DNA of 31,952 nt from positions 1 through 31,952 of IMG/VR virus record IMGVR_UViG_3300037086_000036; one strand, 5' to 3'. The notes under the pieces are model-generated. The model saw nothing but the letters and a program-made list of their open reading frames with translations, did not search any database and had not been told where the DNA came from. The position numbers and the translations under genes are program-made. This stretch comes from a virus. Of this stretch, positions 1,736 to 25,116 are shown piece by piece; positions within the stretch are counted from its first letter, which is position 1; each line of letters starts with the position of its first letter.

Positions 1736-2152
1736 ATGGGAAAGGTTAGCAATGGAGGTGTTGTACGTTCCGGGGATTACAAGGGGGTTAAGTGGACGGT
1801 GTCTCATAGTGATAAATCCGATGCTTTTATAGCAGAGTCTAATTTAGACGATGAAACCTTTGAAGGAATGAATGAAAATAGAGTTATTGATGATTTAAAA
1901 TCATGGATTGATGGTCATGTAGGTGGTTCATTCGCAAACGGACGCCGTAAAGCCACAGCCGTAGTGAACGGAAAGCTGGCCGGGCGGTTTGCGGTGATGA
2001 ACGATGGCGGTTGGCACGGTGACGAAATGGATGTGGATAAAGTATCAGAACTGGAGGAGGAGTTGCGAGACGCAATTTCAAGAGGGTATACTGGAAGAGC
2101 AAACAAGATACGTGAGCAGTTAGAAAAACTCGGGATTAAAGAGCATCTATAA
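1736..2152 (+). CDS. Small protein with 'FANGRRKA' motif
   Basis: The function is unknown. The 138-aa protein carries a 'GSFANGRRKATAVVNGKL' segment at residues 64-81 that resembles segments in four other small genes of this window (19938, 21209, 21841, 24790). The first half is acidic and beta-rich; the C-terminus (residues 97-134) is a charged helix, probably a coiled coil. ATG follows the preceding TAG directly, with GGGAGGA as a ribosome binding site. It lies immediately upstream of the large terminase gene, while its relatives lie among the neck and tail genes. Confidence 0.6.
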   Translation: MGKVSNGGVVRSGDYKGVKWTVSHSDKSDAFIAESNLDDETFEGMNENRVIDDLKSWIDGHVGGSFANGRRKATAVVNGKLAGRFAVMNDGGWHGDEMDVDKVSELEEELRDAISRGYTGRANKIREQLEKLGIKEHL

Positions 2153-2153
2153 C

Positions 2154-3650
2154 ATGACTAACCCGGCCCGGCCTAACATACTTCAGTTCTGGAAGATACG
2201 ACGTCTCAATCGGCGCGAGCCCTGCGAGATTCGTCCATTCCACAAACAGATAGGCCGTGCTCTTACAGAACTAGTAATGGGAACCATGAGCCGTCCCAAT
2301 CTAATGATACTTATGCCGCCCCGCTGTGCCAAGACAGATCTGGGCGTACGCACGTTCGTACCGTGGGCGATGAGCAGTTTCCCGGACTCAGAGTTCATAA
2401 CCAGTTCATACGGTGCCGACCTTGCGGTTGATTCAGCCATTGATATACGGAACACGTTGTCGTCAGACTGGTATCGTTCTATGGTTGACAAGACATGGGG
2501 AGCCCACGTAGAGATGCGGGGGGAGAAGGGCGGTGGCCGTCAAGACTACTTCTACACTGAGGAGAAGGGGTCAGTAAAAGCAACAGGTCGTGGTGGCGCA
2601 ATAACAGGATTCGGTGCCGGGAAGCTGAGACCAGAGTTCGGCGGCTGCATCATCATGGACGACATGCTCAAGGCGCAGGAGGCCCGTAGCCCCGCCGCAC
2701 GCAAGGAGGCCGTCGCTTATTATACGGGCACATTGAAAACCCGCCGTAATAGGCTTGAGGCCCCTAAGACTCCGATGGTGCTTATTATGCAGCGGCTCCA
2801 CGTCGAAGACCTCGCCGGTTATATATTACGTGAGGAACGAGACGAATGGCAGGTACTTCAAATCGAAGCACACAACGAAACAGAAACCTGCTGGCCCGGG
2901 CGTATAGGCATGGACGAGATGTTGACCATGCGGGAACAGGCCCCGGACGACTATTGGCCACAATACATGCAAAACCCGAAGGCCTCCGCAGGAATAATGT
3001 TCAAGCGGGAGTACTGGAAATATTGGCAGGACATCAACAAAGTCAACAAACTGATAACGCTCAAGATAATAACAGCGGATACAGCGTTCAAGACAGAGGA
3101 TGCGAACGACTGGAGTGTGTTCCAATGCTGGGGCTTGACCACCTGGGGCATGATATTGATAGATCAGGTGCGTGCCAAGATGGAGTTCCCGGAGTTGGTG
3201 CAAGCGGCCAAAGACTTCTGGGATAAGCATAGCAGGAAGACGTCAATACACATAACCCCGGCCTCAGAGTTCTGGGTGGAAGACAAAGCGTCCGGCCAGA
3301 GTCTGGTACAAGTGCTACGGCGCGAGTCAATACCGGCCCGGGCATGGACCCCGGACGAGAGCATGAAGGCAAACAAGAACAAGAAGTCGGTAGCCATTGG
3401 GGTAATGGCAAGCACGGACAAAGTTGGGCGAGGCAATCAGTGCACCATGCCGCTCTCAGCCGGGCGCATCATTATCCCAGATCCAAAGCTTCCTGATTAC
3501 AAGTGGGTGGAGGGATTTATAGCAGAGCACGAAGCGTTTACAAAAGACGACAGTCATCTACATGACGACCAGGTGGACACCTTTACAGAGGCCTGCATTA
3601 TATGGCAGGCCCGGGGAGGCGGAGCCGGGGTCGTTCCAGCATATAATTGA
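2154..3650 (+). CDS. terL: Terminase large subunit
   Basis: This is the ATP-driven packaging motor and nuclease that fills the prohead through the portal. The ATPase domain shows a Walker A-like 'PPRCAKT' at residues 55-61, with Ala where Gly is usual, and a Walker B-like 'CIIMDD' at 165-170. The RNase H-fold nuclease domain starts near residue 303 with 'IITADTAFK' (Asp309) and ends with 'HLHDDQVDTFTEA' (Asp471/472/475), where the metal-binding acids are expected. The length of 498 aa is normal. The gene starts one base after the preceding stop and its end overlaps an alternative TTG start of the next frame. Best-supported call of the packaging block. Confidence 0.93.
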   Translation: MTNPARPNILQFWKIRRLNRREPCEIRPFHKQIGRALTELVMGTMSRPNLMILMPPRCAKTDLGVRTFVPWAMSSFPDSEFITSSYGADLAVDSAIDIRNTLSSDWYRSMVDKTWGAHVEMRGEKGGGRQDYFYTEEKGSVKATGRGGAITGFGAGKLRPEFGGCIIMDDMLKAQEARSPAARKEAVAYYTGTLKTRRNRLEAPKTPMVLIMQRLHVEDLAGYILREERDEWQVLQIEAHNETETCWPGRIGMDEMLTMREQAPDDYWPQYMQNPKASAGIMFKREYWKYWQDINKVNKLITLKIITADTAFKTEDANDWSVFQCWGLTTWGMILIDQVRAKMEFPELVQAAKDFWDKHSRKTSIHITPASEFWVEDKASGQSLVQVLRRESIPARAWTPDESMKANKNKKSVAIGVMASTDKVGRGNQCTMPLSAGRIIIPDPKLPDYKWVEGFIAEHEAFTKDDSHLHDDQVDTFTEACIIWQARGGGAGVVPAYN

Positions 3651-3673
3651 GAGAGCAGGGGCGGGGGTTGACT

Positions 3674-4504
3674 ATGGATATCTTCGATCGTGCACAGGAG
3701 GGGGCATTAGCGTTAACAGAACAGGCTGTAAACACTTTCTTGAGACGACCACGATTGATGGTGTCACAATTTATATGCAGGGATTGTGGATATGAAATAG
3801 AAGACTCCCGGGTTGAAGCATGCCGGGAGCAGCGGATAAACATTGTACGTTGTATGACGTGTCAAACAAAACATGAGAAGAAAGAGAAGGAGAATAGACT
3901 TATGAAAAAGATATGTAGTTCAGTTTCGAGAGGATTTGTAGTTTTGTTGCTGTCCTTGGTGATGCTTGCCACGGCCCCGGGCCTTGCGCTTGCGGTAGAC
4001 CACGTTGCTGGCACATGCATACAGACGCTAACGCAGTATGGGATTAGCGCAAGCATGTCGGTGGGTAACCCAATCGTCAGTCTCAAGTTTACATGCACAG
4101 CAGACAACGAAGATGGCACTATACCCAATCAGACCGTTACGACGGCCAACATGAATAAGTTGAAAGGTCAGTATTTCCTCTATCTTGTATCAGCTTATCC
4201 AGTAACGGGGGAGAGTGCAGTGGCACCAGACGCAGCGGATGTTCTCATATTAGACGCCGCAGGTTTTGACTTGTTAGGAAGCACCGATGGTTCTACGGCA
4301 GTGAAGGGAGCCGGATTGATAGACGCAACGTTGAAGAAGACGGTAGCACCTTATCTGTCATCGGCTCCTGCATGGTACTTTCCACCTATTATGAGTACGC
4401 TTACGCTCGTGGTGTCAGGACAGGCCACGCACAGCGCAACATACGTAGTTGAATTAACATTCGGGAAGTTTGGCGGGTTTATTCCTGTCAGCCTTCCTCA
4501 ATAA
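3674..4504 (+). CDS. DksA/TraR-type zinc-finger protein, fused in frame to a secreted protein
   Basis: Residues 1-72 from ATG 3674 look like the small DksA/TraR C4 zinc-finger proteins common in phages: 'MDIFDRAQ' start, then Cys35, Cys38, Cys60 and Cys63 (CRDC...CMTC) with the 'CQTKHEKK' ending. Such proteins bind RNA polymerase and alter transcription. Here no stop codon follows; the frame runs straight into a signal-peptide protein beginning at 3902. Full-length translation would give 276 aa with the hydrophobic segment as an internal membrane anchor. ATG 3674 has a G-rich site (GGGGG) upstream; a TTG at 3647 in the same frame is less likely. Confidence 0.7.
   Translation: MDIFDRAQEGALALTEQAVNTFLRRPRLMVSQFICRDCGYEIEDSRVEACREQRINIVRCMTCQTKHEKKEKENRLMKKICSSVSRGFVVLLLSLVMLATAPGLALAVDHVAGTCIQTLTQYGISASMSVGNPIVSLKFTCTADNEDGTIPNQTVTTANMNKLKGQYFLYLVSAYPVTGESAVAPDAADVLILDAAGFDLLGSTDGSTAVKGAGLIDATLKKTVAPYLSSAPAWYFPPIMSTLTLVVSGQATHSATYVVELTFGKFGGFIPVSLPQ
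3902..4504 (+). CDS. Putative secreted phage structural-type protein (internal start)
   Basis: ATG 3902 has a strong AAGGAG site (3887-3892) nine bases upstream, so this 200-aa product is probably made independently of the upstream zinc-finger domain. Residues 1-31 form a classic Sec signal peptide ending ALA before VDH. The mature part has the pattern of a family I associate with phage virion proteins: an initial 'GTCIQTLTQYG', a central 'ADVLILDAAGFDLLG', and a C-terminal beta pair 'LTLVVSGQ...YVVELTFG'. The family resemblance is by eye and moderate. Signal peptides are unusual for virion proteins made in the cytoplasm. Confidence 0.65.
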   Translation: MKKICSSVSRGFVVLLLSLVMLATAPGLALAVDHVAGTCIQTLTQYGISASMSVGNPIVSLKFTCTADNEDGTIPNQTVTTANMNKLKGQYFLYLVSAYPVTGESAVAPDAADVLILDAAGFDLLGSTDGSTAVKGAGLIDATLKKTVAPYLSSAPAWYFPPIMSTLTLVVSGQATHSATYVVELTFGKFGGFIPVSLPQ

Positions 4505-4515
4505 TGAAATAATCG

Positions 4516-4545
4516 AAGGAGTCATCGCATAAGGAGGCATCGCAT
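4516..4545 (+). repeat. Tandem 15-bp duplication of a ribosome binding site
   Basis: AAGGAGTCATCGCAT (4516-4530) is followed at once by AAGGAGGCATCGCAT (4531-4545), one base different. Both copies hold AAGGAG; only the second is placed correctly for ATG 4544, which lies at its end. Confidence 0.85.
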
Positions 4546-6727
4546 GAAGAAGTTATCCGCAATACTTTTATTTATTGTCCTTGCGCTTTCTGGCTGGGTC
4601 GGGTCTGCTCTTGGCACAAGCGTATATTCCTTTACGGCATTGACTGGCGGTGGAGCGGGTGCCCTTGACAGACTAAAGACACCTGCCGGGGTTACGATAG
4701 CACCCGTAACTGGAGATACGGCGATGGGGGTTGTCGGTGGAAAACCGTATTTCTATACCTACAACTCCACGTGCTCAACACCCACCAGTTCTCCAACCAC
4801 CATACGCCCTACGAGTAACATTGGTTGTTGGACTCATGCCTCTGAACTAGAAAACGGAACGGTCAACTACATCACATACTGGACGGGGCTGCATACGCTG
4901 GGTGCGATTCAACTAACCCCGAACAGGGCGTTAGGGACAAACGCAAGCGGCCTGCCTGTTGCAATTACCGGGCAGGCGTTTGGAGATTCCCTTCCGTTGC
5001 TCTACAACGTGTCGGCTCCCACAAAGTTAGGCCAATTTGACTTATCGGCTGTTACCGCAGGAAATACAAGAAAGATGTACTGGAGGGATAAAGACTTCAC
5101 TCCAGTAGACCTCGCAGGCGACACGTTCACCGGAAAGATAACGACAGTTGCGTCTGCTACAGGGGGAGCAGGTTTTAATCTGCCCCACGGCACAGTTCCT
5201 TCCAGTCCCAATGACGGTGATTTGTGGACTACGACATCCGGTTTGTATGCGAGGATTAATGGAAGTACGGTTGGGCCCTTCTCATCGACTCCCACATGTA
5301 CGGCGACAATACCAACGTTTACAGCGGTTACCGGCGCAGGACTTTCCACAGAAGAGACGAGCAATACCGTAACAGTTTCGATAACAAATTGCGCCAACGC
5401 TACGATATCGATTGCAGGGAACTCTGGCCAATACAAAATCAACTCAGGAAGCTATACAGCGTCCCCTGCATTGTTAGCTACTGGAGACTCCGTTACTGTC
5501 AAACAAACAAGCAGCGGATCGTATAGTACGGAGACTACATCCACATTAACGGTTGCCAGTCAAAGTCAGGCATACAACGTTACGACTGGCGGTTGCTCCG
5601 CATCGATACCCACCTTCACAGCGGTCACAGATTCTGCAACAAGTACGGTTAATGAAAGCAATACTGTTACAATGGCTCTTACCGGATGCTCTGCCGGGGC
5701 TCCGATATCCATTGCGGGCAACAGCGGACAGTACAAGATTAATTCGGGTAGCTATACGGCAAGTGCAGGGACGGTAGCAAATGGAGACTCGGTCAAGGTC
5801 AAACAGACATCCAGCGGAAGTGCTGATACCCTTACGACCACGACTCTTACGGTTGCTGGTTCTACGCAGCCTTATAACGTGACTACGGCGGGTTGTTCCG
5901 CATCCATTCCAACATTCACCGCCGTGACGGGGGCTACAACGGCAACTGAGTATACAAGCAATACGGTAACAGTCACCTTGACTAATTGTCCATCAGGAGC
6001 GGCAATATCGATAGCCGGGAACAGCGGATTATACAAAATAAACTCTGGTTCATATACGGCAAGTGCGGGAACAGTAGCGAACGGAGATTCCGTTACGGTC
6101 AAACAAACCTCCAGCGGGAGCGGGGGCACAAAAACAACAACCACCTTAACGGTTGCTGCCGCAACACAGGGGTATGATGTAACAACATCACAATCCGCCA
6201 ACGCAACGTGGAGTGGTGACACAGAACTAGAGCAAATATCACCAGGGTCTTGCCATTATTCTCTAAATCCTATGTTAATAGCTGATATAACAGGTGTGAA
6301 TTATCATATTTTAATAAAAGCAGATGCATCAGCTTGGAGCGGGACAATTAGTTTAGCAAAACTTTATATGTATTGGGTGAATACTGGCTATACGCATACT
6401 GGAGCAGCAGTTCAAGCATGTAAATTAACAAGAGCGTATGTAAATAATGAAGCGACTTGGAATAGTTATTCAACGGGAAACGCATGGACTACTCCTGGCG
6501 GTGATTACGTGTCAAGCAATCCGTCCTGTGGGTCTGCAAATGTAATTTCTAGCGCAGGTTGGATGAATTGGGATGTGACTGCTATCGTTCAGGACGCTAT
6601 TACGAATAACAGCGGTATTGTGAATATACTAATTAAATATACAACAGAGAATGGAGCATCTTATTCAGAATCATTTAATTCTGACAATGCGACATCCAAC
6701 AAACCATATTTAGCTATTACGCAATAA
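4544..6727 (+). CDS. Secreted tail-fibre/adhesin-like protein with three Ig-like repeats and a DNRLRE-like domain
   Basis: This 727-aa protein probably binds a surface ligand. Residues 1-24 are a Sec signal peptide. Residues ~180-247 match a segment typical of phage tail fibres ('LAGDTFTGK', 'ATGGAGFNLPHG', 'GDLWTTTSGLYARI'). Three near-identical ~99-aa beta-rich repeats follow, beginning at Cys252, Cys351 and Cys451. The C-terminus (~552-727) resembles a DNRLRE domain, seen in bacterial surface proteins, with an 'EATWNSY' core and an 'NWDVTAIVQ' motif. A tail-fibre segment together with a signal peptide is unusual: it may be a fibre, or a protein displayed on the infected cell. The DNRLRE part is visibly AT-richer than the repeats. 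Confidence 0.75.
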   Translation: MKKLSAILLFIVLALSGWVGSALGTSVYSFTALTGGGAGALDRLKTPAGVTIAPVTGDTAMGVVGGKPYFYTYNSTCSTPTSSPTTIRPTSNIGCWTHASELENGTVNYITYWTGLHTLGAIQLTPNRALGTNASGLPVAITGQAFGDSLPLLYNVSAPTKLGQFDLSAVTAGNTRKMYWRDKDFTPVDLAGDTFTGKITTVASATGGAGFNLPHGTVPSSPNDGDLWTTTSGLYARINGSTVGPFSSTPTCTATIPTFTAVTGAGLSTEETSNTVTVSITNCANATISIAGNSGQYKINSGSYTASPALLATGDSVTVKQTSSGSYSTETTSTLTVASQSQAYNVTTGGCSASIPTFTAVTDSATSTVNESNTVTMALTGCSAGAPISIAGNSGQYKINSGSYTASAGTVANGDSVKVKQTSSGSADTLTTTTLTVAGSTQPYNVTTAGCSASIPTFTAVTGATTATEYTSNTVTVTLTNCPSGAAISIAGNSGLYKINSGSYTASAGTVANGDSVTVKQTSSGSGGTKTTTTLTVAAATQGYDVTTSQSANATWSGDTELEQISPGSCHYSLNPMLIADITGVNYHILIKADASAWSGTISLAKLYMYWVNTGYTHTGAAVQACKLTRAYVNNEATWNSYSTGNAWTTPGGDYVSSNPSCGSANVISSAGWMNWDVTAIVQDAITNNSGIVNILIKYTTENGASYSESFNSDNATSNKPYLAITQ
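5297..6190 (+). repeat. Three tandem coding repeats of about 297-300 bp
   Basis: Units start at 5297, 5594 and 5894, each opening with a Cys codon followed by 'IPTFTAVT' and ending near 'YNVTT' or 'YDVTT'. All share 'SIAGNSG', 'YKINSGSYTAS' and 'VKQTSSGS'. Synonymous differences between units indicate an old duplication kept at the protein level. Confidence 0.9.
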
Positions 6728-6735
6728 GGAAGAAC

Positions 6736-6786
6736 ATGAAAAAAATAAAAGAACCGATAGACTTTGTTGTAGGAGAGAATAGATGA
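6736..6786 (+). CDS. Possible 16-codon leader peptide
   Basis: A tiny open frame starts at ATG 6736, preceded by AAGGA (6726-6730), and its TGA overlaps the ATG of the SGNH hydrolase gene at 6783 (ATGA). The peptide would be basic at its start and then hydrophobic. It could couple or limit translation of the next gene, or be the remnant of a lost gene. There is no independent support. Confidence 0.3.
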   Translation: MKKIKEPIDFVVGENR

Positions 6787-8228: not shown

Positions 8229-8243
8229 AGGAGAACGTGGAGA

Positions 8244-8441
8244 ATGGCGAATGCTCTCATAGGTATGATTGGCGGGATTCTTGTTGTTATGTTGAGCCTC
8301 TTGATTTCAATGGTATGGGATTTGAAAAAAGACCTGCGAAGCCAAAAAGATTGCATGAATTTAAAGCAGGATAAACATGAGTGTGATCGCATTATGGACA
8401 AGATGGAAAAGTGGGTTTCTAAGGTAGAGGAAAAAGCATGA
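8244..8441 (+). CDS. Small membrane protein, 65 aa (holin candidate)
   Basis: One N-terminal transmembrane helix (residues 5-24) is followed by a charged, helical cytoplasmic tail with Cys37 and Cys47. A good AAAGGAG site lies before ATG 8244. It begins a run of membrane and cell-wall genes (8244-10676), so a holin or holin-associated role is possible, but one membrane helix with a long tail also fits other small phage membrane proteins. Its stop overlaps the next start (ATGA). Confidence 0.6.
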   Translation: MANALIGMIGGILVVMLSLLISMVWDLKKDLRSQKDCMNLKQDKHECDRIMDKMEKWVSKVEEKA

Positions 8442-9028: not shown

Positions 9029-9042
9029 AAGGAAACTAAAGA

Positions 9043-10997: not shown

Positions 10998-13900
10998 ATG
11001 GAAAGAACAATTGGACCGCAGCTAACCGTAAATCAGGCACGCATGAGATCTCACAACAGGATGATGAACTCCACGTTCACAGGTTCCGGGGCGCAAGAAG
11101 CCGGGGACAGAGGCGCATGGCAAAGCATCCCGATGTATTCCTCCAACCCATACGACTCCAACGACTACGTATACCGTTGGAGACAATACGTGCACATGTA
11201 CGAGCTCTCATGGGAAGCCCGCAAGATTGTACGCATCCCGGTAGAAGACGCACTCAGAAAACAATGGATTGCAGAGGGCATAGAGGAAGAAATGGCTCAG
11301 GGCATAGAAACCCGGTTGAAGCAGATCAACTTCCTGCACGTGCTGTCCCGTAGTCTCATGCTCGAGCGTCTCCTTGGTGGCTGTCTTACTTTCATGGGAC
11401 TGGAGAGCAGGGAAGACGATACGCTCATTCCCTACAAGCCCTCTGAGGGTTCCCGGCTGCGGTTCTGTAACGCGATTCCCATCAGTAGAATCTCTCGTAT
11501 GACATGGGACACCAACCCGTTGAGCGAGAGTTATATGCGGCCCAACAGGTATCTCGTAAACGGAGTGGGGTTACATACATCTCGTTGTTTGGTATGGGAC
11601 GGAGAACCGTTGTTCGACCCCTATGACTTCGCCCTTACAAACTTCCGTTCAAACCTGGCGGGATTCGGGCCGAGTAAACTCGCTCCTATCTGGGACGACA
11701 TTGAAAAGGCTGTGGGGACTCGTCAAGCGGCATACCAACTCATTCAAACGAACAACGCGATAATAGCTGCCATTACAGGGTTACAAGACCTTGCCGGGGT
11801 AAAGGGCGGGGCAGCGAGTGTGCGCAAACTAAAAGAGCTAGTAAACAGCATTAGCGTGTATCGTGCTGCATTAATAGACGGCGAGCGGGTAAACATAACA
11901 CAGAGCGCAGCTTCTTTTGGCTCTGTCCCGGAACTGATAATCACATTCATTCAGATTCTCTCTGCCGCTTCCGACATCCCGGCCACACGCTTCATTGGTC
12001 AAGCCCCGGGCGGCCTGAACGCCACGGGTCAGAGCGACCTGGAGAACTACTACAATGTGATCGACAGTTTCCAAGTCCAACGTATCGAGCCTGCGCTGCG
12101 CCGCGTATACGACATTCATGGGTACGAAATGTACAAGGATAGGTGGAGAGCCCAGCGTCTCAAACTTACATTCAAATTCCCGCCGCTCTGGAATCTTACA
12201 GAGTTGCAGGAAGGCGAGCGTGCTGCGAAGATGATTGAGAATGTAATGAAGATGCGAGACGCCAATCTGATGACTGATAAACACATCATCGAAGAGCTGA
12301 ATCAGAAAGAAGCCTTTAGTATCAAGTTAGATCAAACGGACTTGAATGTAGTCGATGACACCGATTTGGGGATCGGCACGCCCAACGGCGGCCCCGGGCC
12401 ATTCGGAGCCCCTCAGCCGCCGAAGCCCGGCGCAGGAGAGGAACATGCCGACACAAGCAAAACGACGCCGGGAGATGGCGGCAGCAAAACGGCAGGCAAT
12501 GTGGCAGAGCAGCGAGGTGCTGGTGGCCCCCCGAATCCTCAGGGGCCTTCGAACCCTTCCGGCTCTATTCAACGTCTTCGCAATGTCCATTACATAAAGA
12601 ATGCAGACGCTACGTCCCTCTTGATTGGTGCTGCCGGGGGAGACCCGGAACGCACAGATCGTGAACAGTTTATGAAGGGGCTCGCCATAGAACAAGAACA
12701 CTACGATACTGCTCATGGGGATGAGTTGATATTGGCGAAAATAGTTCTCGATCATCTTTCAGAAGACCTTGAGTATTACATCAAGCTCGAACAATATGTT
12801 GAGAACATGGTTATTGAGAACATGGTTATTGAGAATTTCGTTGAAAAGCGGGGGGACAAGTGGGTTGTTCTTTCTCACGATAAGTCCAAGACACTGGGCG
12901 AATACGATTCAGAGGGAGAGGCCAACAAACGCCTTCGTCAGATAGAGTATTTCAAACACGAAAACTCTTCCTTTACCTCTCACGCAGAAAAGGTGTTTGC
13001 AGATCTCTATCCACAAACGGACGGGGTTTTTAAAGAGTCGTGGTTGTCCGGGTATTGCGGGCATGCGCCGACGGCCCCCAGAGACTCAATCGCCGGACAG
13101 TGGTACGAGAAGGGGAAGGAGTATAAGCTGACGAAAAGTACAATGCCTATTGAGAACGAACTTCCCCTACCAACAGCAGAAAACGTAACAGAGAGGCAAG
13201 CAAAGAATCTCCATGTGGGCGATTTGGTAGTTACTGGTTCTGGAGGGTATACAGAAATTGTTGATATAGTACACCAATCGGACGAAACCGGTGGCTTCTA
13301 TTTGGTTAAAATGGCAGATGGGAATAAGAAAATGCTCACGTCCCCAACAAAAACAATGATTGTGTCTAAGTTAAAGAACTCAATCTACCTTCCTCACCTC
13401 CATCCAGGCCCCACACAACCACAGCGGCACGCAGGGAATTACAAGATGCATCATCTACATCTACATGGACTGGACTTCTCCATAGAGAACCCGTGGGGTT
13501 CTGAACGTTCCGGGGTCGACAAAGATGGGAACTCTTGGAGTTCTATTCTCCCGGCGCACTATGGATACGTACGTAAAACCGTGGGGGCCGACGGACAACA
13601 CGTCGACGCATACATAGGCCCGTTTGAAGATTCAGAACTTGTGTTTGTAGTAGACCAGAACGACGCCGATACCGGTGCCTTCGACGAGCACAAGTGTATA
13701 TTCGGTGCGCTGTCAGTTACCCAAGCCAAAGAGTTGTATCTCAAGGGATTCGGAGACGGGAGGGGTGTTCAGAGGTTGGGCTCGATCACTCCGATGACAG
13801 TCGACGGATTCAAACAATGGCTCAAGGAAGGCGATACTACGAAGCCGTACGCCAACTCCCAAAAATACCGTGTTGCTTTTGATATTGACGGAAAGGTGTA

Positions 13901-14120
13901 TGAAGGAAGGGCCGGGGAAATTCATGCTCAATTACTTGCCCGCCTACCAGAAAATGTTCAAGATAAGTACTATGGTGATTCTGGTCGTCAGGGATTTATG
14001 TCTGGGTTTGTTGATGAACGAGGTGACTTTCAAACTCGAGGAGATATAGAAATGCGAACGGGGAAAGTGCCCAACATAGAGTTCCTCAACTCCGAGAAAG
14101 CAATGGTTCGCACCAAGTAA
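10998..14120 (+). CDS. Portal protein (DUF1073) fused to DUF5661-like and pyrophosphatase-like modules
   Basis: Residues ~15-440 are a DUF1073 portal: the 'NPYDSNDYVYRWRQYV' start, 'ARKIVRIPVEDALR', 'SDIPATRFIGQAPGGLNATG' and 'WNLTELQEGERA' are characteristic. The portal is the ring through which DNA enters the head. A Pro/Gly-rich linker (~450-525) leads to a DUF5661-like segment (~541-600), a 'LGEYDSEGEANKRLRQIEYFKH' module (~633-655), an RMF-like 'SWLSGYCG' stretch (~680-690), then a domain (~821-948) resembling the inorganic-pyrophosphatase-like (InPase) module of phage polyvalent proteins ('SIENPWGSERSGVD', 'HYGYVRKT', 'FDEHKCIFG'). The final ~90 residues are unknown. At 1040 aa it is about twice the usual portal length. 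Its start has AAAGGAAA upstream. Confidence 0.88.
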   Translation: MERTIGPQLTVNQARMRSHNRMMNSTFTGSGAQEAGDRGAWQSIPMYSSNPYDSNDYVYRWRQYVHMYELSWEARKIVRIPVEDALRKQWIAEGIEEEMAQGIETRLKQINFLHVLSRSLMLERLLGGCLTFMGLESREDDTLIPYKPSEGSRLRFCNAIPISRISRMTWDTNPLSESYMRPNRYLVNGVGLHTSRCLVWDGEPLFDPYDFALTNFRSNLAGFGPSKLAPIWDDIEKAVGTRQAAYQLIQTNNAIIAAITGLQDLAGVKGGAASVRKLKELVNSISVYRAALIDGERVNITQSAASFGSVPELIITFIQILSAASDIPATRFIGQAPGGLNATGQSDLENYYNVIDSFQVQRIEPALRRVYDIHGYEMYKDRWRAQRLKLTFKFPPLWNLTELQEGERAAKMIENVMKMRDANLMTDKHIIEELNQKEAFSIKLDQTDLNVVDDTDLGIGTPNGGPGPFGAPQPPKPGAGEEHADTSKTTPGDGGSKTAGNVAEQRGAGGPPNPQGPSNPSGSIQRLRNVHYIKNADATSLLIGAAGGDPERTDREQFMKGLAIEQEHYDTAHGDELILAKIVLDHLSEDLEYYIKLEQYVENMVIENMVIENFVEKRGDKWVVLSHDKSKTLGEYDSEGEANKRLRQIEYFKHENSSFTSHAEKVFADLYPQTDGVFKESWLSGYCGHAPTAPRDSIAGQWYEKGKEYKLTKSTMPIENELPLPTAENVTERQAKNLHVGDLVVTGSGGYTEIVDIVHQSDETGGFYLVKMADGNKKMLTSPTKTMIVSKLKNSIYLPHLHPGPTQPQRHAGNYKMHHLHLHGLDFSIENPWGSERSGVDKDGNSWSSILPAHYGYVRKTVGADGQHVDAYIGPFEDSELVFVVDQNDADTGAFDEHKCIFGALSVTQAKELYLKGFGDGRGVQRLGSITPMTVDGFKQWLKEGDTTKPYANSQKYRVAFDIDGKVYEGRAGEIHAQLLARLPENVQDKYYGDSGRQGFMSGFVDERGDFQTRGDIEMRTGKVPNIEFLNSEKAMVRTK
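12801..12830 (+). repeat. Tandem 15-bp repeat within the portal fusion
   Basis: GAGAACATGGTTATT occurs twice in a row and a third partial copy follows, encoding repeated 'ENMVI' in the linker after the DUF5661-like segment. It is in frame, so it only lengthens the linker. Confidence 0.85.
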
Positions 14121-15432: not shown

Positions 15433-16650
15433 ATGAAAATAGTAAACCTACAGTCCGCAGATGGACAGCCTGTACACTGGGAAGAAACACCCGAAGGATT
15501 CCTCCGCAGCCGTATGCGTGTTCTTCGTTCTTGCGTCATGCCTTACGACCTCTCTGAGCTGGAAGGTGCCCCGGAAGGGGCACCCAACCCAGTAATGATG
15601 TATGTCAGCATGGACAGTATGACAAGCCCGGAGAGTTTGCGCTCGCTTGAAGGCGTTCCAATAGTAGCATGGGATCACGCTTGGATTACCCTTGAGGGTG
15701 TTAAAGTTGTGTCTAAAGGCAATGTTGCCGGGGCACCACTTGTCGTCGGCCCATTCTTAGAGATAGACTTGTTGGTTACAGACGCTCAAACGATTCAGGA
15801 TATAAAGGATAGAAAGATAGGGGAGGTTTCGGCGGCTTACAATGCGCAGAGCATTTTTGAGTCCGGGGAGCATGACGGAGAACGCTATGATGCGCGACAA
15901 ACACAAATCCGTTACAACCATATAGCAATCATACCAGAGGGACGAGGGCGTGCAGGGTTTGATGTACGCATACTCAACGAAAAATCTAAAGAAGGAGATG
16001 AGTCTATGGCAACAGTTAAGGTAAAACTCCGTAATGGCAAGTATATCAATACGGACGAAGACGGCGCAGCAGTGGTAGCAGATGATACAACGGCTACCGA
16101 AACTAAGGAAGTGGGAAGCGGGAAGCAACTAGAAGACCTCATGGCCCAATGTGAAGATCTCAAGGCTGCCAAAGCGGAGAGCGATGCTCAGTTGGAAGAA
16201 GTCCGGGGCGAATTGAGTGTATACAAAGAGAAGCTCGATCAGTTGCTCTCGGAAGAGACAATCGAGGCCGCCGCCGGTGAGATGAATGCGGAGCAGGGCG
16301 AGGCATCGGAGATTCTCGAAAACAGCACGTTAGTTGACGACAAAGGCAAGGAAGTTACCGAGGACGCCGAGAAGGACAAGATTAAGAACAGCATCAAGGC
16401 TCTTCACGGCCAGAAGCTGCATTCGGCTGTTCTCTCGAGCATCGGCGTGAAATGCGAAAACATGTCCCCGGAAGCTCTGCGTGGTGCGTTCCATGCCCAG
16501 CACCAGGTTCTCAACACCTTAGGCGGGGCCGGGCGCAAAGTGGTGGCGGGCACCAAACTGATGAACAGCACGGTCGCAAAGGACGGTCAGGTCATTACGA
16601 CCACCCAGCGTTCCGGGCACGACCGCTTAGGCATAAAGAAAGCGGTGTAA
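15433..16650 (+). CDS. Prohead protease fused to scaffold (DUF2213-like)
   Basis: Residues ~1-180 resemble DUF2213 prohead proteases, which trim scaffold and capsid proteins during head maturation. His82 in 'AWDHAWIT' and Ser133 in 'GEVSAAYNA' are spaced as the catalytic His and Ser of HK97-type proteases, and 'YNHIAIIPEGRGRAGFDV' (161-178) is the conserved end of the fold. Residues ~225-275 form a charged coiled coil and the rest is acidic and helical, as expected of a scaffold. AAGGAAG precedes the start. The capsid gene lies downstream. A separate scaffold may start within the gene at 16006. Confidence 0.83.
   Translation: MKIVNLQSADGQPVHWEETPEGFLRSRMRVLRSCVMPYDLSELEGAPEGAPNPVMMYVSMDSMTSPESLRSLEGVPIVAWDHAWITLEGVKVVSKGNVAGAPLVVGPFLEIDLLVTDAQTIQDIKDRKIGEVSAAYNAQSIFESGEHDGERYDARQTQIRYNHIAIIPEGRGRAGFDVRILNEKSKEGDESMATVKVKLRNGKYINTDEDGAAVVADDTTATETKEVGSGKQLEDLMAQCEDLKAAKAESDAQLEEVRGELSVYKEKLDQLLSEETIEAAAGEMNAEQGEASEILENSTLVDDKGKEVTEDAEKDKIKNSIKALHGQKLHSAVLSSIGVKCENMSPEALRGAFHAQHQVLNTLGGAGRKVVAGTKLMNSTVAKDGQVITTTQRSGHDRLGIKKAV
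16006..16650 (+). CDS. Nested scaffold protein (internal in-frame start)
   Basis: ATG 16006 (residue 192 of the protease gene) has AAGGAG at 15992-15997, eight bases upstream, as good a site as those of separate genes here. It would yield a 214-aa protein holding only the coiled-coil and acidic tail, the same arrangement as phage lambda C/Nu3, where the scaffold is translated from inside the protease gene. The site lies just after the protease fold ends, which supports it. Confidence 0.55.
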   Translation: MATVKVKLRNGKYINTDEDGAAVVADDTTATETKEVGSGKQLEDLMAQCEDLKAAKAESDAQLEEVRGELSVYKEKLDQLLSEETIEAAAGEMNAEQGEASEILENSTLVDDKGKEVTEDAEKDKIKNSIKALHGQKLHSAVLSSIGVKCENMSPEALRGAFHAQHQVLNTLGGAGRKVVAGTKLMNSTVAKDGQVITTTQRSGHDRLGIKKAV

Positions 16651-17293: not shown

Positions 17294-17365
17294 GCTGAAG
17301 AAACGGTACGTAATTAACATAACACAACAAAACATACTAAAACATTGGAAAAGGAGGGCTTATAA

Positions 17366-18319: not shown

Positions 18320-18374
18320 GATTTAGGTTTAACTCGTAAAACAAACACAATGATAGGAAGGAGGCTTTTTTATC

Positions 18375-18791
18375 ATGGCACCAAAACGTACTAAAGTGGT
18401 AGCACCAGTTGCTCCCTCTATACCGAAGCGGACGAAGGGCACAGTATTAATTGCCAATCATCACACGGGGGGTTTCACATTTACCCAACGTTCACCTGAC
18501 GGAAAGATTTTGTTGAAACCGTTGCGCTTGCCCCCGGGCACCACAACTCCAGTGCCCGCAGAGGACTGGTTGAAGTGTAAGGAAATAGAAGTTGTCAAAC
18601 ATTACATGGACAAGGGTTTGATTGCTGAAGTAACGCAGGACAGAGCTGAAGTTCCGGTAAGGGACGCAACTTCTACAAAACTTACACCTCCTGACCACCT
18701 GAAGACAGACCAAGAGTTGTCCAACGAAGCAGGCGGTACGGTTGCAGCGAAAGTTACTCGACAGAATCCGGGCTCGGTGAACCTCAAGTAA
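18375..18791 (+). CDS. Head-associated hypothetical protein, 138 aa
   Basis: The N-terminus is basic and Pro-rich; residues ~22-90 form a small beta domain with 'LRLPPGTTTPVPAEDWLK' and 'VVKHYMDKGLIAEV', a pattern seen in proteins encoded beside phage capsid genes. The function is unknown; a head completion or minor capsid role is inferred from position. AGGAAGGAGG precedes the start. Confidence 0.55.
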   Translation: MAPKRTKVVAPVAPSIPKRTKGTVLIANHHTGGFTFTQRSPDGKILLKPLRLPPGTTTPVPAEDWLKCKEIEVVKHYMDKGLIAEVTQDRAEVPVRDATSTKLTPPDHLKTDQELSNEAGGTVAAKVTRQNPGSVNLK

Positions 18792-18830
18792 CAAGAAGTA
18801 AAATACAAAAGGAAGGAGATATAACATATC

Positions 18831-19904: not shown

Positions 19905-19937
19905 CCTGTCCTGACGGACGAAAGGAGGGACAGGTAA

Positions 19938-20366
19938 ATGGCGGAGCAGTTAATATTTTCGGAGAAGGGGTACAAGATCTTTAAAACGGATGGAAGGTTC
20001 TTTATTCAGCTCCCCGGTAAGTCTGCATCAAGTGTTGATAGTGGCTTGCGAAAGAATGGTTTCGATACCTTAGATGAGGCACGCACTGTTCTTACTGATC
20101 AAATGAAGAAAGATGGCGTCTACGGTGTCGGCTCCTTCGGTAACGCCTTCTCCAACGGACGTGTCCGTGCGATGAATGCCATTGCAGAGAAGTTGGGCGG
20201 ACGGTATGGGAATGACTTTGGGAGTACCATGAGGGATACAAACTGGAGAGAAGGCAAACGAGCGAAGTCGGACGGGGAGAAAAAAGAAGCCTGTCCGTAT
20301 CCGAAAGACAGTACAGCAGGAAGTTGTTGGCTGGCTGGGTATGAAGGAAGGCCATGTCCCGTATAG
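19938..20366 (+). CDS. Small protein with 'FSNGRVRA' motif and RMF-like C-terminus
   Basis: Residues ~71-90 carry the 'FSNGRVRA...AEKLGGRY' motif shared with four other genes here. The C-terminus (~103-137) has the spacing of ribosome modulation factor and CrpP-type proteins: 'WREGKRA' (103-109), Gly113, 'CPY' (119-121) and 'CWLAGYEG' (130-137). RMF binds and silences 70S ribosomes in starved cells; whether this does so is unknown. The N-terminus (1-50) is beta-rich. Its end overlaps the next gene by 13 bp. The resemblance is by eye. Confidence 0.6.
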   Translation: MAEQLIFSEKGYKIFKTDGRFFIQLPGKSASSVDSGLRKNGFDTLDEARTVLTDQMKKDGVYGVGSFGNAFSNGRVRAMNAIAEKLGGRYGNDFGSTMRDTNWREGKRAKSDGEKKEACPYPKDSTAGSCWLAGYEGRPCPV

Positions 20367-20740
20367 CACCCACATACGCCGAATTCATCGTTCTGTTCCC
20401 GGCATTCGCAGCAGCAGCACTTCAGCCGATAGTGGAGAGTGAACTTTCCCTATCTGCTCGCATGCTGGACGTCGGGGTATGGGACGACTTCTTCAGCGAT
20501 GCTATTGGCCTCGAAGTGGCACACAATCTTGCTATCCGGGCAATCGCCGCAGGCCCCGGGGGACTCGCGCCCACAGGCCAAGTATCAAATGTATCTGGGG
20601 CCGGGATAAGCATAGGGTTTGCTACGCCCTCCGGGAGTGGCAAGTCACGTACCGTCGATTGGTACAACAGAACCAACTACGGACAACAGTTCTTAACACT
20701 ACGGGATCGTGTGGTTCCGATGGGAATGTTGGCTACATGA
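20354..20740 (+). CDS. DUF4054 head-tail connector protein
   Basis: The 128-aa chain fits DUF4054, an adaptor on the portal: an N-terminal 'YAEFIVLFPAFAAA' segment, then 'WDDFFSDAIGLEVAHNLAIRAIAAG', a Gly-rich loop and a C-terminal 'TNYGQQFLTLRDR'. It follows the capsid block and leads the neck genes, as expected. Confidence 0.8.
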   Translation: MSRIAPTYAEFIVLFPAFAAAALQPIVESELSLSARMLDVGVWDDFFSDAIGLEVAHNLAIRAIAAGPGGLAPTGQVSNVSGAGISIGFATPSGSGKSRTVDWYNRTNYGQQFLTLRDRVVPMGMLAT

Positions 20741-20741
20741 A

Positions 20742-21212
20742 ATGTCAGCTACAGTAACCCGTAAGAACCCTAATGCTGTAAAGGCGGTATACGAACGACT
20801 CGGAAAGGCCGCCGAGAAAGAAATAGCAATCGGTTTTCCAAAGGGCAAGGCAAAAGCTTATCCTGACGGAACAAGAGTAATTGATGTAGCAGCAGCTCAC
20901 GTATTCGGAGTTGGGGTTCCACAACGAGACTTCATGGCATTCGCGAAGGAAGGAATCGTAAAGGATTGCTCCCCGATTATCGAATCGTTGGCTGGGCTGG
21001 AAGAGGGCTCGGGGGCGGGCGCAGATGCGTTAAGAGAAGCGGCGGGCATGGTGGGAGCAGAAGCCATAAAGAAGGCCATACTTGACGGGGACTATACACC
21101 TAACGCCCCGGCTACTATAAAGGCAAAACATGGGTCGACTACCCCGTTAATAGACTCGGCCCTCATGCAGAACAGCGTAACTTACGTTGTACGTGAAAGG
21201 ACAAGAAAATGA
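20742..21212 (+). CDS. Neck/tail completion protein (HK97 gp10/Mu gpG-like)
   Basis: The pattern is that of the phage virion morphogenesis/tail completion family: 'EIAIGFPKGKA', 'VPQRDFMAFAKEGI', 'AIKKAILDGDYTPNAPATIKAKHGSTTPLIDSALMQNSVTYVV'. Such proteins close the head-tail joint. I chose ATG 20742, directly after the previous stop, instead of 20709, which lies inside the DUF4054 gene. Its stop overlaps the next ATG (ATGA). Confidence 0.8.
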   Translation: MSATVTRKNPNAVKAVYERLGKAAEKEIAIGFPKGKAKAYPDGTRVIDVAAAHVFGVGVPQRDFMAFAKEGIVKDCSPIIESLAGLEEGSGAGADALREAAGMVGAEAIKKAILDGDYTPNAPATIKAKHGSTTPLIDSALMQNSVTYVVRERTRK

Positions 21213-21436
21213 AGACCCAAACATCTCATTACGAAAACGGAAGGCGCAAGGCACAAGCGGCCCTTTCTAATACAAACCCGGACGGCACGGTAAGTACGGA
21301 CGAAGACAGCCGCATGCAAAGTTTGAAGTCCCGGGCAGAACAGTTTGTGCGGGATTGCAAGAAAGAGTGTTACGACATTGGTGGCAGCTTCCGTGGCCCG
21401 GGCTACTGGGCAGAAGTTTTAAAGATTTTGAGGTGA
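21209..21436 (+). CDS. Small protein with 'YENGRRKA' motif, 75 aa
   Basis: Residues 8-18 carry the shared 'ENGRRKAQAAL' motif. The rest is short and charged, ending 'GYWAEVLKIL', which matches 'EYWDDVLNFG' in the gene at 21841, so the two share both ends of one fold. It is translationally coupled (ATGA) to the tail completion gene. The function is unknown. Confidence 0.55.
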   Translation: MKTQTSHYENGRRKAQAALSNTNPDGTVSTDEDSRMQSLKSRAEQFVRDCKKECYDIGGSFRGPGYWAEVLKILR

Positions 21437-21437
21437 T

Positions 21438-21830
21438 ATGGGCGGCATACTTCCACTATCCGGCTTCGGCCTACTTGCATTGTCTTTCTTCCTCGTCGAC
21501 ACGGTCGTAAACGACGTGCTATACACGAAGGATGAAGTGAATGGAATAGACGTGATAAGCGAGCCAACGCCAAGAACAATACAAGCCGCCGTCGATCCTG
21601 CTAACAAGGAAAAGCTCGAGAACATATTCGGAGGGAACATTGGGGATGGTTCCATAGGCATATATACCCAAGAAGTTCTCTACATGCAAGACCAAGGGGA
21701 CGTGAATCAAAGTTATGTTATCGACGGAGGGAAGGAATACAGAGTAAAAGCGAGAGCAGACTGGACGCTCCAGATGGGCTTCTACGTATATTTAGCTGAA
21801 CGACATATACCACAACCGCAAGGAGTGTAA
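21438..21830 (+). CDS. Putative neck/head-tail joining protein, 130 aa
   Basis: A soluble, mostly beta protein with 'VNGIDVISEPTPRTIQAAVDP' and 'GGKEYRVKARADWTLQMGFYVYLAERHI'. The last part resembles small phage neck or adaptor proteins that sit between the tail completion and tail terminator genes, and the position fits. The first residues are hydrophobic, but this is probably not a signal peptide. Family name not certain. Confidence 0.6.
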   Translation: MGGILPLSGFGLLALSFFLVDTVVNDVLYTKDEVNGIDVISEPTPRTIQAAVDPANKEKLENIFGGNIGDGSIGIYTQEVLYMQDQGDVNQSYVIDGGKEYRVKARADWTLQMGFYVYLAERHIPQPQGV

Positions 21831-21840
21831 GGAGCAGGAA

Positions 21841-22266
21841 ATGGCATTGAAAAGAATCAACGGAGATTTATCAGCTTGGAAGCGGGCACTTCCACGAGAT
21901 ACTTCTGGAATAGATTCCACCCACCCAAAATACTCGTATGCTTACCGCATGGGGAAGAACGGGCGGGAGGATTTTGGTACATATTATCACGAAAGTCAGT
22001 ATGGAGAGTTTGAGGAAAACAAACCGTTTGAGAACGGACGTCTCCGTGCCCAGAATGAAATCAACAACAAGTTGATGAATTTGGGGATTAAAGTACGCAA
22101 TGATAAATCAACTGCAGAGTATTGGGATGATGTTTTGAATTTTGGGGTTAAAATCAGTATTCTTGAGTCCCTGCGACTTTCAAGCCATGTAGATGAATAT
22201 GCAAAATCAGATTTTAAAGACTTACCTTCTGATGTGCAAAGTAAACTAAAACAAAAGTTAGGATAA
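21841..22266 (+). CDS. Small protein with 'FENGRLRA' motif, 141 aa
   Basis: Residues 63-85 hold 'FENGRLRAQNEINNKLMNLG' followed by IKV, strikingly like 'GRQKAENYINARMQNLG' with MKV in the gene at 24790. 'EYWDDVLNFG' follows (93-102), matching the end of the 21209 product. The N-terminus (1-60) is polar and Tyr-rich; the C-terminus is helical. The stop overlaps the next start (TAATG). Function unknown; it lies between two neck genes. Confidence 0.6.
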   Translation: MALKRINGDLSAWKRALPRDTSGIDSTHPKYSYAYRMGKNGREDFGTYYHESQYGEFEENKPFENGRLRAQNEINNKLMNLGIKVRNDKSTAEYWDDVLNFGVKISILESLRLSSHVDEYAKSDFKDLPSDVQSKLKQKLG

Positions 22267-22850
22267 TGCCAAGCCAAGATGACATCTACAACGCACTGGG
22301 TGCAGTTGTTAAATCGACAACGGGCCGGGCATGGTGGCGCAAGGGAGGAATACAAGCACAGCCCACAGGCCCCTACGCTACAGTATTCTTAATCATGGGA
22401 AAAGGAGTAGAGCACGACGTCGTGGACAGAGTTCCAATTACCCCGGTTACAGAAACAAGCGGGGACGCCAAAGAGATACCGTGGGGCACGCGACTAATAG
22501 AATGTCAAATCGAATTTTTTCGTAGTGCTACGAACGACTCGGCTTCGGACGCCGCTACTCGCTTCAAGAACTCGTTGCAGATGCAAGCCCGCTTCTTAGA
22601 CCTCTGGCTCATCATGGGACTAGTCGGCACCGTCGACGTACTCGACATTGCAGCATTGTTCCGGGCGGACACTGAGCCACGAATGAGAGTTACGTTTCAA
22701 GCATACGCAAACATAAACGAACCCTACCCTCTGGACGGGGACAGTTCGACAGATATACAGTTCCAGACTATTGACATTACGCATGTAAAACAAGATGGTG
22801 TGGAGACGGAAATACCAGTAGACGTAGATAACAATCAACCAATAACCTAG
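22266..22850 (+). CDS. Tail terminator/neck protein (LIC_12616-like)
   Basis: The 194-aa protein has the features of phage neck terminator proteins: an N-terminal helix 'DDIYNALGAVVKS', 'GPYATVFLIMG', a strand 'ECQIEFFRSATNDSASDAATRFKN' and a C-terminal beta stretch. Such proteins cap the tail tube. Position directly before the sheath gene is typical. Confidence 0.72.
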   Translation: MPSQDDIYNALGAVVKSTTGRAWWRKGGIQAQPTGPYATVFLIMGKGVEHDVVDRVPITPVTETSGDAKEIPWGTRLIECQIEFFRSATNDSASDAATRFKNSLQMQARFLDLWLIMGLVGTVDVLDIAALFRADTEPRMRVTFQAYANINEPYPLDGDSSTDIQFQTIDITHVKQDGVETEIPVDVDNNQPIT

Positions 22851-22870
22851 TATATAAAGGAGGAATTATA

Positions 22871-24757
22871 ATGTACGTAACAAGTGACAAATCGCTCCCA
22901 ATATCTTTAGATGTACAAATCAGCCTATCAATGGCTGCCGCCGCCGCCCGCAAGAACCTTACAGTTTTATGCGTGGCTGGCGAGAATCTTGGGTTCCTGC
23001 CCAATAGCCAGCGGGTGCGCTTCTACAGCACTCTCGATTCCGTGGTACTGGACTTCGCCACAAATTCAGAAGCATATCAAGCGGCCGCCGCGTTCTTTGC
23101 TCAGGTCAATCCGGGCACCATGGCGATAGGAGAAGTCTTTACAGAAGACCTTCCGGCGCAACTGGTATCCGCTCAGTTGTCCGCTGCACAGCTATTAGCT
23201 ATCAAGAACGTATCTTACGGGAGTATGCAGTTGACGTACAACAATGGTGGAGCAGATACACTGCTCACCTTGTCTGATCTCGACTTCTCCGCCTGTACCA
23301 CGATAGAGGCTGTAGCCGCCGTTATCGATGCTGCCATAGATTATCTTGCAGAGGATGTTGCCTGTAGTGTAAAGACGCTGCCGGGCGGAGCGAAAATTCT
23401 GGTCATTCAAACAGCATTGGCGGGTACTGGAAAGACAATCACGTACCCTCTGGCCGTAGCCCCGGTGGATGCAATAACAAATCTCATTACCGCATGGACA
23501 AACGGATCCGCTCCATTCGATACGTTGACTTCCGTTGCGTCACCAAATATCGCCGCTGCCATAAATACGGCGGGCACCACGGAGACAGCGCATTCCAACG
23601 CTATCACTTTGGAAGAAGGCATTCAGTACAGGATGCTGATCAACCTTACATCAAATTCGGGACAGAAACCTACGCTTACGGGCACGGGCGGATTCCCAAC
23701 AACAACTTTGGTGGCAGGCGAAAACGTTATTGAATTTGTGGCCACAGGCAATCAGTGCGTCATAACAATAACGGATTCAGCCGCAGCGTCTTGGGCGGCG
23801 GCAGCTGTATCCATGACAGCCGTTTCCGTTGGCACTTACATGGGTACTCTTCTGGGCATGACGGCAGCCGCAGGCGGCTTCGCCCTTAATGGCTATACAG
23901 CCGTAGACATCGCAGACGAGCTTTCCAGCATCCAGAGCGCAGCAAGCGCCGCCGGCCAATTCATCTATGGCTGGTGCCTGGGCGCGAGCCTGAGAGATGT
24001 TGAAATTCAGACGGTTGCTGCTACATGGGCGCTGGGACAACGGGCTGCTATGATGACATTGGTTTCCAATGATCTTACGGCGCTTTCTTCCGGCTATACA
24101 GCGGATCTTGGCCCCGTGCTGCTGGCTTCAGGAAATAAGCGCGTGGTGGCCATATATCATGACAATCCGCAGCGATATCCGGACGTATCGATATTGGCAT
24201 ATATGCTCAGCGTTAATTACATGCTGCAAAACAGTACAGTGACGGCGAAGTTCAAAGTTCTACCCGGTATTGAAACAGTTCAGCTTTCGGAAACAGACCT
24301 GCTTGTTCTTCAGGCCAAAGGGTACAATGTATACACGGCGGTCGGCGTTAATGCACGGACTTACAGGGATGGCGTTACAGACCTCCCCGGATGGTACATG
24401 GATACGGTTATCAATATCGACAACTTTGCTGAAGACCTGAGCGTCAACTTTTTTAATGTATTCTTACGCAACAAAAAGGTTCCTTTTTCCGGCCCGGGGC
24501 AACTCTTATTCGTGGACGCTGGTATGGATACCGGTGCTCAATATGTCTACAACGGAGCCTTTGCAGATCGTCAGATTACAGATACGTCAAAGAAGAGCGG
24601 CATATCTATCGTACCGGCGGTACAGGTTATTCCCACTCCGATTAACATGGCCTCAGCAGCCGACCGCGCCGGGCGCATAGGCCCTCCAATTACAATCATC
24701 GTGCAGGATGCGGGCGCAATACACGAGATAGCAATCGGCGTAAGTATTGTCGAGTAG
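22871..24757 (+). CDS. Tail sheath protein (DUF3383) with extra beta insertion
   Basis: This is the contractile sheath, which shortens to drive the tube through the envelope. The start 'LPISLDVQISLSMAAAAARKNLTVLCVAG' and the end ('GPGQLLFVDAGMDTG', 'GRIGPPITIIVQDAGAIHEIAI') are typical of DUF3383. At 628 aa it is longer than usual. Residues ~230-325 look like an inserted beta domain ('ITLEEGIQYRMLINLTSNSG', 'VAGENVIEFVATGNQCVI') probably exposed on the tail surface. AAAGGAGG precedes ATG. Confidence 0.9.
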   Translation: MYVTSDKSLPISLDVQISLSMAAAAARKNLTVLCVAGENLGFLPNSQRVRFYSTLDSVVLDFATNSEAYQAAAAFFAQVNPGTMAIGEVFTEDLPAQLVSAQLSAAQLLAIKNVSYGSMQLTYNNGGADTLLTLSDLDFSACTTIEAVAAVIDAAIDYLAEDVACSVKTLPGGAKILVIQTALAGTGKTITYPLAVAPVDAITNLITAWTNGSAPFDTLTSVASPNIAAAINTAGTTETAHSNAITLEEGIQYRMLINLTSNSGQKPTLTGTGGFPTTTLVAGENVIEFVATGNQCVITITDSAAASWAAAAVSMTAVSVGTYMGTLLGMTAAAGGFALNGYTAVDIADELSSIQSAASAAGQFIYGWCLGASLRDVEIQTVAATWALGQRAAMMTLVSNDLTALSSGYTADLGPVLLASGNKRVVAIYHDNPQRYPDVSILAYMLSVNYMLQNSTVTAKFKVLPGIETVQLSETDLLVLQAKGYNVYTAVGVNARTYRDGVTDLPGWYMDTVINIDNFAEDLSVNFFNVFLRNKKVPFSGPGQLLFVDAGMDTGAQYVYNGAFADRQITDTSKKSGISIVPAVQVIPTPINMASAADRAGRIGPPITIIVQDAGAIHEIAIGVSIVE

Positions 24758-24789
24758 TATTTAACTAAAAAGAAAGGACGGTACAGAAA

Positions 24790-25116
24790 ATGCAGAGAAC
24801 TCGCTTTCAAATAAGAAACGAAGCAATACCGGGTGCGGCGGATGACAAAGCCGCAGAAAGCAAAACGGCCCCGAAAGACATAGGCCGACAAAAGGCGGAG
24901 AACTACATCAATGCTCGGATGCAAAATCTGGGAATGAAAGTAAAGAATGCAGAAACACCAGAAGGTGCTTCGTTCAGAAAAGAATTTCCTAAAATTGCAT
25001 ACGATTCGGGTAAGGAAACAAAGAAAAAAGGTATTGGGCGCGATAGGAATCCGTTCCACCCTACTCGTGGGAAAGACGAATACGATGCGTGGCACAAAGG
25101 ATACGACGAAGGTTAG
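24790..25116 (+). CDS. RMF/CrpP-like small protein with 'GRQKAENYIN' motif
   Basis: Residues 32-51 carry the shared small-protein motif (closest to the 21841 product). Residues ~70-108 match the ribosome modulation factor pattern well: 'AYDSGKETKKKG' (70-81), 'NPF' (87-89) and a closing 'AWHKGYDEG' (100-108). The protein is 108 aa and rich in Lys and Asp. It sits between the sheath and tube genes. Possible roles are binding ribosomes after injection, or a tail part; neither is shown. Confidence 0.65.
   Translation: MQRTRFQIRNEAIPGAADDKAAESKTAPKDIGRQKAENYINARMQNLGMKVKNAETPEGASFRKEFPKIAYDSGKETKKKGIGRDRNPFHPTRGKDEYDAWHKGYDEG

Follow-up and report, generated by a model that had tools for sequence, protein, structure and literature searches.

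A short protein tag shared by small basic proteins in the structural operons of a myovirus-like phage clade, and its possible part in loading head cargo

The window, a stretch of 31,952 bases forming a fragment of a virus record, was analysed and found to carry the structural operon of a contractile-tail phage. The operon contains genes for the small and large terminase, the portal, a head morphogenesis (MuF-type) protein, the head maturation protease, the capsid and the neck, and further genes for the sheath, a virion structural (tube-type) protein, the tape measure and the baseplate. Open reading frames were confirmed for five small genes on the plus strand, starting at 1736, 19938, 21209, 21841 and 24790, and Shine-Dalgarno-like purine-rich stretches lie upstream of all five. 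What they have in common is a roughly 20-residue tag, F-x-N-G-R-x-K-A-x-x-E-I-x-N-K, carried on otherwise unrelated small, mostly basic proteins. Protein 1 (138 aa, 1736..2152) occupies the slot between the small and large terminase genes and consists of an N-terminal part, the tag FANGRRKATAVVNGKLAGRF (1931..1990, found by motif and tag profile) and a C-terminal part which looks helical by eye and for which Pfam gave no family at E 0.1. Protein 2 (142 aa, 19938..20366) has an N-terminal beta-alpha part, the tag FSNGRVRAMNAIAEKLGGRY (20148..20207, found by the profile and preceded by FGN/A, the slash marking a candidate cut) and an RMF/CrpP-like C-terminus (residues 102-136, 20241..20345; Pfam RMF E 1.1e-5 and NF041887 E 1.5e-6, both below the curated cut-off), which is the only clear known part among the five proteins. 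The AlphaFold2 model of protein 2, run with five other sequences, had a mean pLDDT of 66.7, and the tag region was one of its least confident stretches; the N-terminal part was rich in strands and included a helix, the tag formed a short low-confidence helix (73-85) and the C-terminus was helical. Fold comparison matched no PDB entry at E 0.001 or better. Protein 3 (75 aa, 21209..21436) carries its tag YENGRRKAQAALSNTNPDGT (21230..21289, motif and profile) near the N-terminus, and its cargo part has a relative encoded at a different slot in contig L015. Protein 4 (141 aa, 21841..22266), recognised by the tag profile, holds the tag FENGRLRAQNEINNKLMNLG (22027..22086, motif and profile). Protein 5 (108 aa, 24790..25116) lies between the sheath and tube genes and combines a divergent tag, KDIGRQKAENYINARMQNLG (24874..24933, found by the profile, with VKN/A directly after it), with a weak RMF-like C-terminus (RMF E 0.11). 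The neighbouring sheath gene (22871-24757) encodes 628 aa against 499-510 aa in most relatives, and so seems to carry an insertion. In the gap between the large terminase and the portal, a 727-aa gene (4544-6727) showed three repeats of about 90 residues (SIAGNSGQYKINSGSYTAS...) in its translation.

The first-pass annotation had proposed that the five genes share a motif. Four of them do contain aromatic-x-NGRxxA, while the fifth (24790) has only a divergent copy, DIGRQKA, with neither the N nor the aromatic residue; this copy scored 27.0 bits with the tag profile, of which 24790 is itself a member, and aligned by blastp with protein 4 over 26 residues at E 5.7e-5. Proteins 1 and 2 aligned over 71 residues at E 3.3e-4. 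Within-protein shuffling, which ignores shared ancestry, placed the motif well above chance: aromatic-x-NGRxxA was found in 4 of the 41 window genes against 0.0105 expected (2000 shuffles), and NGRxxA likewise in 4 of 41 against 0.12. The consensus of 34 members was [FY]-x-N-G-R-x-[KR]-A-x-x-E-I-x-N-K, in which G4 and A8 are invariant (34/34) and N3 (32/34), K/R7 (33/34), R5 (26/34) and I12 (26/34) are strongly kept. Net basic charge was seen for 33 of the 34 tagged proteins against 13 of 36 other window genes. The five tag copies of the window are only 38-64% identical over 45 nt, and the same residue is often written with different codons; the tag is conserved at the protein level and not at the DNA level, and copying of the tag as DNA was rejected on this divergence. 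At E 0.01 no Pfam, NCBIfam or PHROG family covered the tag in the five window proteins, the nearest being phrog_36057 at residues 69-79 of protein 2 (E 0.039), and no description of the tag was found in the open-access literature searched on capsid targeting, prohead protease cleavage and polyvalent proteins. The expectation of a previously unnamed family thus held for the window proteins, and the existence of the tag family is near certain. A portal segment, YEGRAGEI, had also been put forward as a weaker copy; it was rejected as a member, the window portal giving no tag-profile match of 7 bits or more.

The distribution of the tag in related phages was analysed using the 20-column profile, which was searched partly against its own members, the held-out test described below being the only exception. 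Tags were present in 23 of 31 contigs (window included) of one myovirus-like clade, the kind of co-occurrence that had been named as support for a real family. The clade contigs were gathered starting from sheath and portal and from DNA patterns of the tag; 7 of the 31 were first reached by the tag patterns, 3 of these 7 also by the protease scan, and, apart from the window, 26 contigs were reached through structural genes, 18 of which carry the tag by hand count. Several of the eight tagless contigs are short fragments. Two others, L008 and L009, each show 19 structural genes together with Asn sites and no tag there, which indicates that the tags are accessory. Leaving the window aside, the four longest tagged contigs that were covered almost completely (36 to 69 kb) have all of their 12 tags among structural genes. 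Overlapping pieces enter twice into the covered lengths of the clade contigs. For the held-out test the profile was fixed before contigs were fetched by protease-scaffold alignment (8 new clade, 20 outgroup). Tags of at least 14 bits were obtained in 7 of the 8 new clade contigs, two of which (L086, L088) share their tagged protein with L062; none of the 20 outgroup contigs matched, with nothing at 8 bits or above among 2823 ORFs. In the outgroup phages CASP1, AAM22, Vibrio 1.278 and ctfzr933 the tag was likewise not found (best 6.2 bits), and their protease-scaffold proteins are mostly devoid of Asn sites. The tag was absent from close relatives of proteins 2 and 4 in viral contigs and from named-phage relatives of proteins 1, 2, 4 and 5, L083_6235 and L018_8634; the named-phage matches of protein 2 cover only its RMF-like part, and a Caulobacter phage match to protein 1 covers residues 7-93 at E 0.01. 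The tag-pattern scan of genome contigs (22 stretches) gave no convincing member, the best match, L044, being a 46-residue ORF and the others reaching at most 17.5 bits, and hence no host was found; five genomes with tag-pattern matches showed no relative of the window capsid protein. In the first viral pattern scan, 7 of the 12 stretches were family contigs (L019-L024, L026), L025 and L029 were taken as chance, and L030 was removed by hand from the tag profile. A small acidic protein of another phage, the same in L027:2-181 and L028:1239-1487, carries the tag-like DFKNGRAKAFEEIANK, which may be chance or a distant use of the tag; these two doubtful cases were counted in the tag-flank statistic and excluded from the P1 scan and from the consensus and basicity counts.

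The slots occupied by tagged genes were compared across the clade. Tagged genes were found between the small and large terminase (window 1736, L080 299), between the large terminase and portal (L080 2618), between portal and MuF (L015, L083 5045), between MuF and protease (L015, L018, L056, L062, L084, L085, L083 6235), between the capsid region and neck (window 19938, L002, L056 17718), among the neck genes (L018, L062, window 21209, window 21841) and between sheath and tube (window 24790, L003, L004 and twice in L057). This bears out the initial description of a family scattered between packaging, head, neck and tail genes. Related genes that look like glycosyltransferases by eye also lie among the neck genes, at L015:18515-19498 and L062:7290-8297. 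With the tag masked, related cargo was detected in different slots for L003 and L022_307 (E 3.9e-18), L015_13872 and window 21209 (E 1.4e-9), and L017_17718 and L084 (E 6.2e-9). An RMF-like part stands before the tag in L018_2928 and after it in window 24790, the two being related at E 8.5e-4. Since masked cargo parts recur in other slots and on either side of the tag, the tag is portable and its position free; it is internal in most members and near the N-terminus in some. The suggestion that one whole small protein had been copied through the operon was accordingly not sustained, nor was a fold common to the members, as the members have only the tag of about 20 residues in common, the parts joined to it being different and exchanged from slot to slot. 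A DUF7218-like segment starts three tagged proteins, L017:17718-18230, L084:1095-1718 and L085:9849-10007 (L084 at E 3.7e-5, below cut-off). Labels of KOW/SH3-like and UVR-like cargo given by eye were dropped, since in Pfam the SH3-like label had a single match, below threshold (L003, E 0.0043), and the UVR label none.

The head maturation protease of the window (15433..16650, plus strand; PHROG 530 E 5.3e-44), a family which we take to be the one named DUF2213, is followed in the same protein by a scaffold-like C-terminal part with the candidate sites LEN/S, IKN/S, CEN/M, VLN/T and LMN/S. The scaffold part is rich across the clade in hydrophobic-x-Asn followed by Ser, Ala, Met or Thr, and many of these sites fall at conserved columns. 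The T4 head protease cleaves at sites of the form hydrophobic-x-P1, and the clade candidate sites are alike in form. In the herpesvirus assemblin/scaffold system, too, a protease is fused to scaffold and the sites read hydrophobic-x-P1/Ser with Ala at P1; the fusion and the site form resemble those of the clade. All 20 residues were scanned at P1 of [ILVMFYC]-x-P1-[SAMTGC]. Asn led in the clade scaffold parts (85 observed against 14.9 expected, z 19), in the portal ends (30 against 10.7, z 5.7) and in the tagged proteins without their tag (39 against 18.1, z 5.3), while Asp led in the outgroup scaffold parts (55 against 25.4, z 6.6); these z-scores are inflated by shared ancestry among conserved homologues, the value for the tagged proteins being fairer since these are mostly unrelated outside the tag. 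The same scan gave z 7.3 for Asp in the capsid protein and z 5.2 for Ala in the portal core. Among the newly fetched proteases, 50 Asn sites against 8.1 expected were counted in the 8 clade proteins and 14 against 9.1 in the 18 outgroup proteins. A candidate site lies just upstream of the tag in 11 of 29 proteins (null 0.03) and just downstream in 17 of 36 (null 0.11); many tags, for example that of window 21841, have no standard site nearby. Cleavage at the Asn sites by the head protease is considered likely.

The portal of the window (10998..14120, plus strand) bears a C-terminal extension with DUF5661, an InPase domain (residues 809-943, 13422..13826, plus strand) and the candidate sites VEN/M, IEN/M, LKN/S, YAN/S and FLN/S. 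The fusion is evident within one protein, with PF06381 at E 2.2e-50 and PF18823 at E 1.3e-45. In the clade, the portal extensions combine DUF5661 with variable RMF-like, topoisomerase IB and InPase parts: InPase was found in the window, L080, L011-L013 and L085, an RMF-like part in L012 (E 1.3e-3), and topoisomerase IB catalytic domains in L080:3521-6682 and L083:2234-4738 (Pfam Topoisom_I E 2.5e-15 and 3.2e-16). Candidate sites such as VEN/T, IEN/S and LKN/S separate these parts. The tagged protein L083_6235 is laid out like a portal extension, with candidate sites at apparent domain junctions. The portal itself is without a tag, but to judge from its domains and sites its extension holds similar cargo segments between similar sites. 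Against the Pfam RMF model, L021 scored 31.6 bits, above the gathering cut-off, and window protein 2 scored 25.9 bits against a cut-off of 27.9; the matches of L055, L018_2928, protein 5 and the L012 portal were weaker still. No peptidase family, and hence no MPTase domain, was detected in the seven portals scanned. Between candidate sites of the L013 portal (L013:10028-12739), residues 616-665 gave a very weak ADP-ribosyltransferase-type match (E 0.053, below cut-off) which may be due to chance.

The tag family, the clade with its slots, the shuffling of cargo and the site statistics are read directly from the sequences, and from them we infer a course of packaging, cleavage and ejection and a function for the cargo. 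The cargo would be made together with the late structural genes, and the tag would bind either the scaffold or a different protein of the procapsid interior, by which the cargo would become enclosed; targeting to the procapsid is a predicted property of the tag. The head maturation protease would then cut after hydrophobic-x-Asn before Ser, Ala, Met or Thr, in the scaffold part, in the portal ends and beside the tag, setting the cargo free, and the portal extension would release InPase, RMF-like and other segments likewise. The freed cargo may remain in the head and be ejected along with the DNA; acting on the host, RMF-like parts might affect translation, InPase the nucleotide pools and topoisomerase IB the DNA. 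The chances are judged about even that the tag draws cargo into the procapsid, that the head protease frees it at Asn sites and that it is ejected with the DNA. The wider proposal is held somewhat more tentatively: a portable, position-independent loading tag and an Asn-specific head protease may load and release shuffled effectors, either as tagged proteins or as a segmented portal extension, and related phages may have switched P1 between Asn and Asp with the substrates following.

The chief rival takes the tag for a mere maturation-protease linker (F-x-N/G, I-x-N/K, V-x-N/A) which joins shuffled domains and targets nothing, the cargo entering heads otherwise or not at all. The F-x-N-G of the tag resembles a site, so that the tag might be a processing linker only; hydrophobic-x-Asn occurs twice within it, candidate sites flank it and the parts on both sides are exchanged. 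However, the invariant G4 and A8, and R5 (26), K/R7 (33) and I12 (26), are kept beyond what P3-P1' would need, and tags occur near the extreme N-terminus of short proteins, where a linker is unneeded, so this explanation is considered unlikely, though a serious one. A less probable reading makes the tag a helix that binds proteins and serves some purpose in the virion or the host other than packaging, for example by docking cargo on tail, terminase or ribosome, with incidental Asn sites. Such a helix would suit the finding that tagged genes neighbour not only head genes but also terminase, neck and tail genes, and RMF-like parts do suggest ribosomes; the reading is opposed by the enrichment of candidate sites beside the tag, by Asn being the one clearly enriched P1 residue in the tagged proteins outside the tag, and by the RMF-like part that also occurs in a portal extension. 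Selfish or neutral insertions (morons), sharing a conserved segment through recombination between operon slots, would account for the many slots, the variable content and the absence from some relatives, but the tags are dissimilar as DNA (the window identities given above), often internal and kept at the protein level, which renders this explanation very improbable.

Should the loading and release reading prove true, tag and cut sites would allow the injected cargo of a phage to be listed by sequence alone, as signal peptides do for secreted proteins. It would also represent a second, independent capsid-targeting code besides that of T4, a short tag with which the loading of foreign proteins into heads could be tried, and a natural record of a protease and many substrates changing specificity together.

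Among known families, RMF/CrpP (PF04957, NF041887) matches the C-terminus of protein 2 and part of L021; it differs in being one cargo type of several, with most matches below curated cut-offs. The internal proteins of T4 are small and basic; a short element takes them into the procapsid, the head protease sets them free and many of them are then ejected, according to the portion of PMC9026906 drawn on here. The likeness to IPI-III and Alt with their capsid targeting sequence is a short element on different small basic proteins. As given in the same portion of PMC9026906, the T4 element is about 10 residues long and N-terminal with Glu at P1, whereas the clade tag has about 20 residues and is often internal, with Asn predicted at P1. 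The SPN3US protease gp245 recognises a short motif whose last residue is Glu and cleaves behind it, favouring Ser at the following position, as described in the consulted parts of PMC10052503. The cleaved head and ejection proteins of SPN3US/phiKZ resemble the clade in short-motif cleavage with Ser preferred at P1', in propeptides with several sites and in having portal and protease among the substrates; they differ in Glu at P1, and no common tag is described in those parts of PMC10052503. For portals carrying a fused InPase, the section of PMC5512222 on polyvalent proteins used here predicts packaging and injection of the InPase; like the clade, these proteins show the portal joined to InPase and other effector domains. 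The same section of PMC5512222 invokes a fused metallopeptidase for release, whereas the head maturation protease is proposed here, and in the present clade much cargo consists of separate tagged genes. By analogy, the clade appears to fit the logic of T4 and of the polyvalent proteins, from which it departs in its P1 residue and in having a tag that is portable and often internal.
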